A stretch of 64,000 bases of DNA, taken from Candidatus Saccharimonas sp. Its GTDB lineage: Bacteria > Patescibacteriota > Saccharimonadia > Saccharimonadales > Saccharimonadaceae. The translations under genes and the position numbers were made by a program. The first letter of the stretch is position 1, and each line of letters starts with the position of its first letter. The stretch is from the NCBI GenBank assembly GCA_022736555.1, contig DZCW01000003.1, positions 1 to 64,000 of the forward strand, in the 5' to 3' direction. Positions 53,019 through 60,198 of this stretch are shown here, one piece after another. The notes below the pieces were generated by a model that was given only the letters and a program-made list of their open reading frames with translations, ran no database searches and had not been told where the DNA came from.

Positions 53019-55459
53019 TTTGGTTTCGATATACCGACAGTTTGGCTGCCATAAAATCGGCGCTTAATAAGTTCGGCAAAACATAGATATACCGCCACTA
53101 CGCAAACTAAAGCCCCAATCTGAACCGGTGATAATAGACCGAAACGAAAGATCTCGCGTATTGGCAGTAATATAACCAACAGCGCAGCTGTAATTACTAA
53201 TAACGTACTAGCGATTAGCGGCTTTGATGGTTTACTTTCCTTAAATGGGTTTAGTCTGGTTCTGATAATGTAAACTACAAAGATCTGAGTCATGATCGAT
53301 TCGATGAACCATCCAGCTTGAAAATGGGCCTGATCAGCCCGAAAAACCAACATTAAAATCCCAAAGGTTATAAAATCAAAGATTGAACTTAGTAGCCCAT
53401 AAGACCACATGAATTTTCTAATTTCTTTGATATTCAAGGTATGTGGTTTTAGAACTTCGGAATCGTCGACATTATCTAGTGGAATCGCAAATTGTGAAGT
53501 GTCATACAGCAGATTATTTAGCAAAATCTGAGTAGCTAACATCGGCAAAAACGGCAAAAACAACGAAGCCCCAGCCATCGAAAACATATTTCCAAAATTC
53601 GAGCTAAGGCTCATGCGTAAATATTTCATAGTGTTAGCAAAAGTTTTGCGACCCTCGGTGACACCGTTTATTAGCTCATGTAGATTTTTGCGCAGCAATA
53701 TGAAATCGGCCGCATCCTTAGCGACATCAACTGCATTATTAACCGACATACTAACATCAGCGGCACGAAGACTCGGTGCATCATTAACCCCATCGCCCAT
53801 ATAGCCAACAATGTGGCCATTAGCCTGCAAGGCCTGGATGATCTGCATTTTTTGTTCTGGATTCACTCTGGCAAAAATTGTTGTTTTTTCAACAGCAGTC
53901 TCTAATTCACGCTTTGATAGTTTATCTATTTCATCACCGTTCAGAGAACCTTCGATTGGCAATCCGATATCCGAGGCTATTTTTTCGGTAACATAGATAT
54001 TATCACCGGTAATGATTTTAATAGAAATACCCATAGTGCGCATTCGTTCCAGCGTATCAGATACTGAGTCCTTTGCTGGATCCAAAAACGCCAAAAAGCC
54101 GTAAAACGACATATCTTTCTCGTCTGTCGGTTCATAACGCTTTTCCGGCTCAATCTCCTTAGAGGCAACAGCCAGAACTCGAAAACCGTCACGACTCAAT
54201 TTGTCATAAGTATCCTGAATAGTGACCCTTAGTTGATCGGTAATATGAATCTTGTCCGATCCATAGGTTTTAGAAATCTTTAGAACTTCCTCGGGCGCAC
54301 CCTCGACTACCAGAAAACGTCGTTTGTCGTTTGTATGATGTATAACGACCGCTTCGCGTTTGCGCTCGAAATCGAATGGTATCTCGTCAATTTTTCGATA
54401 CATAGTTATATCAACGCCTTTATGCGCTTTTACTGCCACATCAAGCGGGTTGCTAAGGCTAGTCGAAAAAGAACTAACTAGATAGCCTAGTTTCAGAACG
54501 TATTCCGAATCATTATTCTTACCATCAACATATTTGACTAAACTAATCTTATTTTCGGTTAACGTGCCTGTTTTATCAGTACATAATATATCCATACTGC
54601 CAAAATTTTGGACGGCTGATAATTGTTTGACGATTACACCCTCTTTAGCCATCTTTAGTGAACCCTTAGTAAGGTTAAGGGTAATGATCAGCGGCAATAG
54701 TTCGGGTGTTAAGCCAACCGCTAGGGCTAGGCTAAATAATATCGATTCCAGCAGATCGCGATGAAACAAAACATTTATCGTCATTACAAATAGGACTAAA
54801 CAAAAAGTAATTTTGATAATCAGTACACTGAATTCCTTAATTTCGGTCTCAAATTCAGTAACCCTATGTACCGACTGTAGCGACTTAGCTATATGAGCGA
54901 ACTGCGTAGCCGAACCGGTTTTAGTAACGCGCATCATACCCAATCCACTAATAACTCCACTACCCATAAATACTTCCGCATCAATCAGTTTGCCTTGCGG
55001 GAAAGATTCACCAGTCAGGGCCGCCTCGTTAGTCGACAGATCCTTGCCGTCAATAATCACGCCGTCAGCCGGGATAACCTTGCCGGCCGAAAGCAGTACA
55101 ATATCGCCGGGCACTAATTCACTAACCGCCACTAAATGCTCGCTGCCTTCACGGATAACATGGGCTTTGACTCTGACTTTATCTTTTAGCGCTTCGGCTG
55201 CTCGTTCTGATCGATAAGTATTCAAAAAATCCAACCCAACACTCAAGGCTACGATCGCAATAATGATAAAAAAACTAGCCCTATCGCCAAAGAAAAGCGA
55301 CAGCGAAGCCGCTAGTAGTAGAATTATAACCAGAGGGTTTTTGAATCTCGCTAGTAGTGCTAATAATGCTTTGTTTTTGCGATGGTCTTCTTGTAATATA
55401 TTCAGACCATACTGTCGTTGTAACTTTTTAACATCCCTAAACGAAAGACCTTTTATCAT
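53015..55459 (-). CDS. mgtA: P-type ATPase, magnesium-importing MgtA type (P3B)
   Basis: An 814-aa ion pump. The actuator TGES (about 151-154, ALTGESFPQG), phosphorylation site CTDKTGTLT (near 300), GDGVNDAPSLRAADV hinge and C-terminal membrane helices are seen. SSNFGNMFSMAGASLFLPFLPML and NNLLYDTSQFAIPLDNVD match MgtA/MgtB rather than calcium or sodium pumps. TATAAT lies 7 nt before the ATG, so no long Mg-sensing leader like that of enteric mgtA exists here. Confidence 0.92.
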   Translation of the reverse strand: MIKGLSFRDVKKLQRQYGLNILQEDHRKNKALLALLARFKNPLVIILLLAASLSLFFGDRASFFIIIAIVALSVGLDFLNTYRSERAAEALKDKVRVKAHVIREGSEHLVAVSELVPGDIVLLSAGKVIPADGVIIDGKDLSTNEAALTGESFPQGKLIDAEVFMGSGVISGLGMMRVTKTGSATQFAHIAKSLQSVHRVTEFETEIKEFSVLIIKITFCLVLFVMTINVLFHRDLLESILFSLALAVGLTPELLPLIITLNLTKGSLKMAKEGVIVKQLSAVQNFGSMDILCTDKTGTLTENKISLVKYVDGKNNDSEYVLKLGYLVSSFSTSLSNPLDVAVKAHKGVDITMYRKIDEIPFDFERKREAVVIHHTNDKRRFLVVEGAPEEVLKISKTYGSDKIHITDQLRVTIQDTYDKLSRDGFRVLAVASKEIEPEKRYEPTDEKDMSFYGFLAFLDPAKDSVSDTLERMRTMGISIKIITGDNIYVTEKIASDIGLPIEGSLNGDEIDKLSKRELETAVEKTTIFARVNPEQKMQIIQALQANGHIVGYMGDGVNDAPSLRAADVSMSVNNAVDVAKDAADFILLRKNLHELINGVTEGRKTFANTMKYLRMSLSSNFGNMFSMAGASLFLPFLPMLATQILLNNLLYDTSQFAIPLDNVDDSEVLKPHTLNIKEIRKFMWSYGLLSSIFDFITFGILMLVFRADQAHFQAGWFIESIMTQIFVVYIIRTRLNPFKESKPSKPLIASTLLVITAALLVILLPIREIFRFGLLSPVQIGALVCVVAVYLCFAELIKRRFYGSQTVGISKPN

Positions 55460-55466
55460 AACCTAT

Positions 55467-55472
55467 ATTATA
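55467..55472 (-). promoter_or_regulatory. -10 box of the mgtA-like gene, leaderless layout
   Basis: TATAAT lies 7 nt before the ATG (55459). Confidence 0.6.
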
Positions 55473-55498
55473 ACTTAGATTATATTAATAGATGAAGT

Positions 55499-55729
55499 TT
55501 ACAATTTTAACATTTTTAGAACTTCATAAACGATCATAGCCGGCCAGACAAGCGCCTTTAGAATTGATAGTACCCCAGCCCAAAAACCGGCAGCTGTTTG
55601 CAGAAAATAAATGAGCGCCCCGATAAGCCCAAATCCATAAACAGCACCGCCGCCAGCCCCGTGATTAACGTGTTTTACGACCGTGTGTTTTTCGTTTTTA
55701 CATTTTTCTGTAGCCATATCTTTTTCCAT
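55499..55729 (-). CDS. Small membrane protein, unknown
   Basis: A 76-aa protein with a hydrophilic His/Lys-rich N-terminus (KCKNEKHTVVKHVNHG), a glycine-rich stretch and one or two membrane segments (about 30-50 and 53-72). No family is recognised. The ATG at 55729 has an AAAGGTAGG ribosome binding site; a second in-frame ATG lies four codons later. A TGC-TAAAAT extended -10 lies near 55763. It is divergent from the radical SAM gene. Confidence 0.6.
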   Translation of the reverse strand: MEKDMATEKCKNEKHTVVKHVNHGAGGGAVYGFGLIGALIYFLQTAAGFWAGVLSILKALVWPAMIVYEVLKMLKL

Positions 55730-55801
55730 TCTATACCTACCTTTATGTTATAGATTTTAGCATAAAACACATATTAATAACCGTTCACGACAGACCCCGC
55801 T

Positions 55802-55939
55802 TAACCTGAGTCTCAAAACCCATTCCGCGGGTGGCGTTCGGCGGGGCAGCACCCGATTTTATACAAAACGGTAATCCGTTTTTATAAATCAGGGGCGGAC
55901 CGGACGACAGGACCCGAGGGGATTTTGAGACTCAGGTTA
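55802..55939. other. Rod-like inverted-repeat element, candidate structured RNA or mobile palindrome
   Basis: A perfect 17-bp inverted repeat (55802-55818 with 55923-55939) encloses 104 bp. Inside, further complementary pairs keep the same order: 55828-55832 with 55912-55916, 55836-55841 with 55900-55905, 55852-55854 with 55892-55894, and an apical stem 55855-55871 with 55876-55890 closed by a 4-nt TAAT loop. The whole element can form one long interrupted hairpin. The flanks of the apical stem are strikingly GC-rich compared with neighbouring DNA. It lies between divergent genes and ends 42 nt before the radical SAM start. No known riboswitch or RNA family is recognised. Confidence 0.65.
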
Positions 55940-55981
55940 CTTATGCTTGCATTCGTCTGCAGTATCTCGGAACATATACCT

Positions 55982-56962
55982 ATGACCCACGATGAGATTC
56001 CGAAGAGGCTTTTTGTACCTAATGTAATAGACATTGAGGTTACTGGTAATTGTGAGTTTAATTGCCCGGGTTGCTGGGGATCTAAACCAAGTCATGATAA
56101 TAAAGAATTAACGACTAAGCAATGGCTAAAAATATTTGAAAAAATTGATGATTACAGTTTTTTCGATAGTAATGAACGAGTTGTTATTACTGGTGGCGAA
56201 CCATTATTGCGTAATGATCTAATTGAAATAATAGACGGGCTATCTGGTAATGATCGTCAAATATCGTTGTCTACTACTGGGCTGGATCGACATAATTTAT
56301 TAAAAAGAGCAATAGGTAAACTATCAACTATCGGTATTCCTATCGATGGGTCTTCGCCTGAAATAAATTCTAGCTGGCGCAGGCATAACATTATGCCCGA
56401 CGGTGGTTTAAATACATCCCTGGATGCTCTGAGGCTAATTCAGGAAAATACCCCAGATTTATATACATCCGTTCGTACGTTAGTCCATCACGAAAATGTC
56501 AACAAAATCGCCGAAATACCAGAATTCTTAACAAAATCAGGCATCGATATTGCCCGCCTTAGATGGATTCTATACGAACTCAATGAGCGTAAGATCACAC
56601 CTAATAAGTTCCCACGATTAGTTTCGACCAAGGCAACAGAGTATTTTGCTGCAGGGTCTAATGATTTTGAGCCATCAATGGAATATTCAGGCCGAGGGTT
56701 CCAGGAAGTCGTTGTACGGACTATCGGAAAAATGGCCTATAGGAATTTCATCATAAACCCAAGCGGAGAAACGCGCGCAATCGTTCCGTCCAGTAGCTGT
56801 GATGAATCTATCGAAATCGAGTTTGGCAATTTGCATAAGGACTTTAGGAACACCATGAAATCATTCAATGATTCCGAAGAAAAATATTTCTTTTCTTGGG
56901 ATGCAGCAGACAGCCCCGAAGGTTTTTATATCAGACAAGATATGGGGCTAATGGATATTTAA
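55982..56962 (+). CDS. Radical SAM protein with a single 4Fe-4S site
   Basis: A 326-aa radical SAM enzyme of unknown substrate. C24-x3-C28-x2-C31 (CEFNCPGC) binds the SAM cluster and GGEP at 71-74 binds the SAM amino group. Outside this motif only one cysteine is apparent (in SSSCDES), so there is no SPASM or twitch auxiliary cluster. The start at 55982 is chosen because homologous sequence begins there; frames open from a TTG at 55925 inside the inverted repeat. It has no cofactor or peptide-modification genes beside it. RNA, lipid or protein modification are all possible. Confidence 0.85.
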   Translation: MTHDEIPKRLFVPNVIDIEVTGNCEFNCPGCWGSKPSHDNKELTTKQWLKIFEKIDDYSFFDSNERVVITGGEPLLRNDLIEIIDGLSGNDRQISLSTTGLDRHNLLKRAIGKLSTIGIPIDGSSPEINSSWRRHNIMPDGGLNTSLDALRLIQENTPDLYTSVRTLVHHENVNKIAEIPEFLTKSGIDIARLRWILYELNERKITPNKFPRLVSTKATEYFAAGSNDFEPSMEYSGRGFQEVVVRTIGKMAYRNFIINPSGETRAIVPSSSCDESIEIEFGNLHKDFRNTMKSFNDSEEKYFFSWDAADSPEGFYIRQDMGLMDI

Positions 56963-60123: not shown

Positions 60124-60198
60124 TGGCTGGGATGGAGGGGTTCGAACCCCCGAATGTCGGCACCAAAAGCCGATGCCTTACCACTTGGCGACATCCCA
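60124..60198 (-). tRNA. tRNA-Gln (UUG)
   Basis: A 75-nt cloverleaf on the minus strand: 7-bp acceptor stem TGGGATG/CATCCCA, D arm with GTGGTA, anticodon stem TCGGC/GCCGA with loop TTTTGGT (anticodon TTG), T loop TTCGAAC and encoded CCA. The U1-A72 pair is typical of tRNA-Gln. GatCAB in this window would amidate Glu on this tRNA. Confidence 0.96.

Follow-up and report, generated by a model that had tools for sequence, protein, structure and literature searches.

A palindromic element of Saccharibacteria, probably mobile and MITE-like, with an apparently selected core fold

The palindrome described here lies in a 64,000-nucleotide stretch of a Candidatus Saccharimonas sp. contig (the window), between two divergently oriented ORFs, one of them a radical SAM gene (Table 1). 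With the TTG start under which it was listed, the radical SAM ORF overlaps the palindrome's right foot; an ATG at 55982 is the likelier start. The perfect 17-bp inverted repeat claimed by an earlier note on this DNA is present, its arms spaced by 104 nt, and helices of 5 bp (CGGGT/ACCCG), 6 bp (GTTCGG/CCGGAC, with one G.U) and 3 bp (CCC/GGG) follow in register inside it, as the note had described; the AT-rich apical stem with its TAAT loop, reported there as 15 bp, is paired over about 13 bp and has a bulge in the MFE fold. Folding of the whole 138 bp as one hairpin was borne out by an RNA fold of -67.3 kcal/mol, compared with -39.9 (sd 4.0) for 200 dinucleotide shuffles (z -6.8), none of which folded as well (0/200). 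Rfam returned nothing for the palindrome at the gathering threshold, nor at E up to 10, in agreement with the note's failure to recognise a known family; on the same covariance-model search, its suggestion of a 6S-like trans RNA finds no support, and 6S or another known RNA was rejected as an identity. The site had further been placed between divergent promoters: the flanking ORFs are indeed divergent, but a consensus scan of 55400-56100 gave no promoter, and no terminator either. A bidirectional terminator was discarded, given the absence of a T-run terminator from that scan and the occurrence of copies in divergent spacers and genes as well. The sole Rfam match in the window is a tRNA gene at 60127-60198 on the minus strand.

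Table 1. Features of the palindromic element and its flanking ORFs, in window coordinates.
Feature	Position	Strand	Basis or remark
Flanking ORF	55505..55729	-	
Entire palindrome, with feet and structured core	55802..55939	.	sequence, fold
Left arm of perfect inverted repeat, TAACCTGAGTCTCAAAA	55802..55818		
Left foot ACCTGAGTCTCAAAACC, TIR-like end common to many unrelated Saccharibacterial hairpins	55804..55820	+	
Conserved structured core, recurring with unrelated flanks	55828..55916	+	89 nt here, 73-105 nt elsewhere
P1 5' strand CGGGT, partner 55912-55916	55828..55832	+	covariation
Purine of non-Watson-Crick pair with 55907	55834	+	G.A/A.G counts
P2 5' strand GTTCGGC, covarying strongly with 55899-55905	55836..55842	+	covariation
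Internal-loop GGGGCA	55843..55848	+	GGGG unchanged in 94 of 95 distinct copies
Variable apical stem-loop, TAAT loop here	55855..55890	+	fold
P2 3' strand ACCGGAC	55899..55905	+	covariation
Partner purine of 55834	55907	+	G.A/A.G counts
Invariant AGG bulge	55909..55911	+	95 distinct copies
P1 3' strand ACCCG	55912..55916	+	covariation
Right foot, one mismatch (CCTGAGTCTCAAAATC on minus strand)	55921..55937	-	
Right arm of perfect inverted repeat, TTTTGAGACTCAGGTTA	55923..55939		
Radical SAM ORF, neighbour outside the element	55925..56962	+	TTG start as listed

The part of the palindrome that recurs elsewhere is its inner 89 nt, the core, whose boundaries are sharp and whose flanks are unrelated between copies. 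The copy count proposed by the earlier note came out as single in the genome itself and dispersed in its relatives: many genomes of the genus gave strong matches, and a search with a covariance model built from the core was positive in 53 of 199 sampled family genomes, with up to 14 copies per genome. Across the phylum the same model matched 6 of 287 genomes, three of them within the same genus and three weak and distant. Scanned with a pattern, 84,980 species genomes gave at least 118 matching stretches; among the matches listed, the named records were almost all Candidatus Saccharibacteria, with a few other labels (one Chloroflexi, one Nomurabacteria MAG). The core had no match in IMG/VR or in phage or plasmid collections, on which ground phage or plasmid cargo was rejected. 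Altogether, 131 non-redundant core copies were collected, and 95 distinct ones were used for the structure statistics. Some copies depart from the basic form: in L055 and L062 the apical stem is swapped for another hairpin containing GCAAGGAAA...TTCCGATG, and eight loci (L065, L076, L079, L124, L217, L227, L232 and L259) carry after the core a conserved 3' extension, GCGACCTACGT...ACGACGGGAGCGG (peptide SDLR...DGSG), these being a longer form with a second hairpin.

The 95 distinct copies, fitted to the covariance model of the core, have 93.4% of cells paired (76.7% when shuffled), both sides changed in 16 of 24 pairs and a covariation score of 0.439 versus 0.136 shuffled, counts that overstate the number of events since related copies are not independent. 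An independent MAFFT alignment of 39 copies gave 94.4% paired, 13 double-changed pairs and a score of 0.348 versus 0.124. The outer P1 pair, for instance, is C-G in the window copy and G-C, U-A or A-U in others, while GGGG and AGG in the loops hardly vary across the 95 distinct copies. At positions 7/83 of these copies (55834/55907), a non-Watson-Crick purine pair occurs in two exchanged forms, G.A in 57 copies and A.G in 34, alongside A.A in three, A.T in one and G.G in none. The exchange is also found in place, as a full G.A to A.G swap between the orthologous sites L059 and L063 with the fold kept, and between the cysS orthologues L083 and L181 four pairs outside the apical stem show compensated changes, again with the fold kept; such in-place compensated changes could also be produced by gene conversion between copies. 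Because the stems vary yet keep their pairing while the loop bases stay fixed, the core fold appears to be under selection.

The outer repeat of the window copy belongs to a wider set of sequences. Its 17 bp are part of conserved feet, ACCTGARTCTCAAAACC. With at most one mismatch allowed, 19 of 247 genomes from the order have the feet, some of them at several places; a reversed control gave three single matches. These feet bound hairpins of many different interiors. Most core copies lack them; the window copy and the other hairpins have them as shared terminal repeats. Direct repeats around 15 foot-bounded elements average 4.9 bp, compared with 1.6 bp when flanks were randomly re-paired, and reach 5 bp or more in 40% of the elements versus 6% of the re-paired controls; the direct repeats include TTAATTACTA, TTTCTCTAA and TTCTAAA. 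Around the window copy itself there is only a weak CTTA repeat, offset by two bases, and no clear target duplication was seen at core-only copies. Since the feet bound many hairpins, some with direct repeats, the window copy appears to be a hairpin that has TIRs at its ends and carries the structured core. A search of 3-kb loci for an autonomous partner found no second foot (up to two mismatches) 1-2 kb away. The foot-bounded hairpins themselves (L262-L291, L088, L090-L092 and L098) are 90-135 bp long with differing interiors, several showing target duplications of 5-10 bp, and the one at L280 resembles the core in opposite orientation. The reverse complement of the feet, GGTTTTGAGACTCAGGTT, encodes GFETQV, and at L089, L262, L267 and L278 the feet match apparent valS coding sequence (GFETQV) where the palindrome is absent. 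An origin of the feet as a valS-derived arm is not favoured, as the same feet bound many different hairpins, and the valS match is tentatively treated here as coincidence or ancestry. The single viral match to the 17-mer (L002) has no palindrome beside it.

With ORFs called mechanically, 26 copies lie in sense and 24 in antisense in spacers between co-directional genes; the other classified copies are in convergent spacers (24), in divergent spacers (20), inside ORFs (23) or near contig edges (10). No constant neighbour gene was found beside the 131 copies. This random orientation fits a mobile palindrome and not a regulatory leader. Nineteen copies stand in open frame within long conserved, mostly housekeeping genes, in three reading frames and on both strands. 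NCBIfam supplied names for eight tested hosts (CysS, RNase HII, KsgA, GltX, MnmA, LepA, Der and DnaX, where for DnaX the family name alone was used, the first residues of the query being inexact), and TopA, a Trm11-like methyltransferase and the Dus-like and TrmA-like hosts were named by sequence only; gene symbols of in-frame hosts accordingly include cysS, der, dnaX, mnmA, lepA, rnhB, topA, ksgA and gltX. Translated, the element reads RVxxGGAAP...GADxxxGP or AGDxxRGSA...GADxxAGP, and AGPVxxSAP...GAAPxxATR from the other strand. Compared with the solved homologue 3sp1, CysS has the extra segment between two residues that are contiguous in 3sp1. Empty orthologous sites were found in relatives for cysS, for der and for two gene junctions (L060 and L071), and one cysS (L332) holds a shortened in-frame remnant of the element. 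Intron-like splicing is not favoured, as the inserts are open in frame on either strand and the L332 remnant is in frame. The dnaX gene at L080 (genome G003) has a second, different palindrome in frame, with the peptide ARSDSGPGVGSDLGS. At L217 and L234 a single frame continues from RNase HII to a YraN-family domain, and the element lies where the two meet; the family matches were obtained for L217.

A particular arrangement was observed in the MAG JARIHL (G534), where 11 copies (L182, L166, L179, L187, L155, L256, L251, L208, L261, L149 and L254) sit at the apex of near-perfect inverted repeats of 24-41 bp whose sequence is unique to each site, some reaching into the 3' ends of the two convergent genes alongside. 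Searched in relatives, the junctions matched JARIHL alone and no empty sites were found. Inverted repeats of this sort are known to arise by template switching (PMC8604942). The regularity of these repeats may mean that the long repeat accompanies insertion.

Dispersal, sharp boundaries, unrelated flanks, random orientation, empty sites and in-frame copies are the reasons for which we read the 138 bp, from sequence comparison, as a miniature non-autonomous palindromic mobile element of Saccharibacteria, MITE-like and with a selected core fold, a reading to which we assign a probability of roughly 0.84. The palindromic DNA or MITE option of the earlier note is supported by its dispersed copies, random orientation and empty sites and by the target duplications around hairpins sharing the feet. 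The note had taken covariation together with a radical SAM association as the mark of a regulatory RNA and dispersal as that of a MITE; covariation and dispersal were both found, the radical SAM association was not. Copies would be moved in trans by an enzyme recognising a folded single strand, most likely ssDNA and possibly RNA. Insertions would be tolerated in spacers, or wherever every reading frame remains usable, those within genes becoming translated linkers, and the radical SAM gene would be an incidental neighbour. Integron attC sites are recognised as a folded strand with conserved extrahelical bases. By analogy with them, folded-strand recognition of the core is plausible; on inspection, the conserved AAC/GTT core sites of attC were not seen at its ends and there are no cassette arrays. 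Against the mobile-element reading count that no mobilising enzyme was found for the core, that target duplication is not clear at core-only copies and limited to the weak CTTA at the window copy, and that at orthologous sites the fold is kept with compensatory changes after insertion, which exceeds the needs of a dead MITE.

The position of the palindrome 5' of the radical SAM ORF had suggested a cis-regulatory leader of that gene, which we consider very improbable: elsewhere the same core adjoins unrelated genes in random orientation, no radical SAM association appears in relatives, and the gene has no close homologue among 100 relatives. Its link to the palindrome is judged incidental because weak radical-SAM-domain matches in five of those 100 are all it has. 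A more serious competitor, though still unlikely, is that the core is a functional structured RNA (a ribozyme, a protein-binding RNA or a small trans RNA) working at each location and dispersed by chance, so that its conserved loops, its G.A/A.G pair and its in-place compensatory changes stem from RNA function. The covariation, the near-invariant loops and the purine swap, including the exchange between L059 and L063 and the heavy stem turnover with pairing kept in CysS orthologues L083/L181, speak for such a function; random orientation, insertion on either strand of housekeeping genes with open frames, the want of a constant neighbour, the many family genomes without the core and the absence of an Rfam relative speak against it, and what looks like in-place change could come from gene conversion between copies. 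A combined possibility, also improbable in our estimate, is that the core represents a novel catalytic or protein-binding structured RNA, mobile in Saccharibacteria and folded and active wherever inserted, coding sequences included, with at least one lineage inserting by a fold-back that duplicates up to 41 bp of host flank in inverted form.

The other competitors concern the mechanism by which such a palindrome spreads or persists. A REPIN-type element, in which a RAYT (Y1, IS200/IS605-like) transposase acts on a single-stranded hairpin, would agree with the Y1 transposases found above the family cut-off in 17 of 28 genus genomes, several of them RAYT-like in sequence, and with the resemblance of an imperfect inverted hairpin of about 90 nt to REPINs (PMC3116915). 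Yet the Y1 genes carry short hairpins of their own with an ACGGA loop, the core is absent within 1.5 kb of eight Y1 genes, co-occurrence of core and Y1 is not significant (15/7/2/4, Fisher p = 0.17), several high-copy genomes such as G004 (nine copies) have no Y1 match, and the core ends in CGGGT/ACCCG with variable flanks, the terminal GTAG or CGTC tag being absent; we regard this mechanism as rather unlikely. Distinctly less probable is that pairing is kept by mutation, with template switching copying arm onto arm and the element being an inert palindrome. Template switching makes the arms of an inverted repeat more alike and flips spacers (PMC8604942), the site-unique repeats of JARIHL are of the expected kind, and same-interior hairpins in opposite orientation exist (L090, L091); it yields Watson-Crick pairs, however, so that a reciprocal G.A to A.G exchange without G.G lies beyond its reach, and it cannot hold unpaired loop bases fixed.

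Among known systems, the Rickettsia palindromic elements (RPE; Ogata et al. 2000; described in PMC2229807 and PMC10969869) are alike in being dispersed palindromes of about 100-150 bp with stable long stem-loops (here an element of 138 bp with a core of 73-105 nt), in lying both between genes and in frame inside conserved protein genes, and in that no mobilising enzyme is identified. They differ in belonging to another phylum. The Saccharibacterial core is set apart by stems that covary, loops that hardly vary and a G.A pair that swaps, and the element occurs in either orientation and in three or more reading frames. The MITEs Correia/NEMIS, ERIC and RUP (PMC2229807) are likewise small and non-autonomous, with some in-frame fusions, and the Saccharibacterial foot-bounded hairpins share TIR-like ends and target duplications with them; unlike these, the core mostly recurs without feet, then shows no clear target duplication, and has no autonomous partner found. 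REPIN/REP elements with RAYTs (PMC3116915) also form an imperfect hairpin of two inverted halves, and REPs, of which GTAG- and CGTC-tagged classes are described, occur inside genes too (PMC3733652); the core differs in having neither tag, in not flanking a transposase gene and in its low copy number. The RAYT-like Y1 transposases of the genus (L324-L329 and others) are a separate observation: several are flanked by ACGGA-loop hairpins (e.g., AAGG-ACGGA-CCTT), possibly their own REPs.

The literature searched, mostly outside subscription journals, held no description of such an element in Saccharibacteria or other CPR, and as far as that search goes the hairpin family is previously unrecognised and works like the Rickettsia palindromic elements. 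Earlier descriptions of protein-coding palindromic elements concern Rickettsia and Wolbachia; in 2024 a review treated the same in other prokaryotes as merely conceivable (PMC10969869). They are now found in a separate, epibiotic phylum with reduced genomes, where core genes such as cysS, der, topA and gltX contain them. How protein-coding palindromes move has been a standing question since 2000, and the selected fold offers an entry to it, with the swapping non-Watson-Crick pair as a handle on the recognising protein or chemistry. For the proteins of Saccharibacteria, it follows that linkers of 25-30 aa may be inserted DNA rather than domains.
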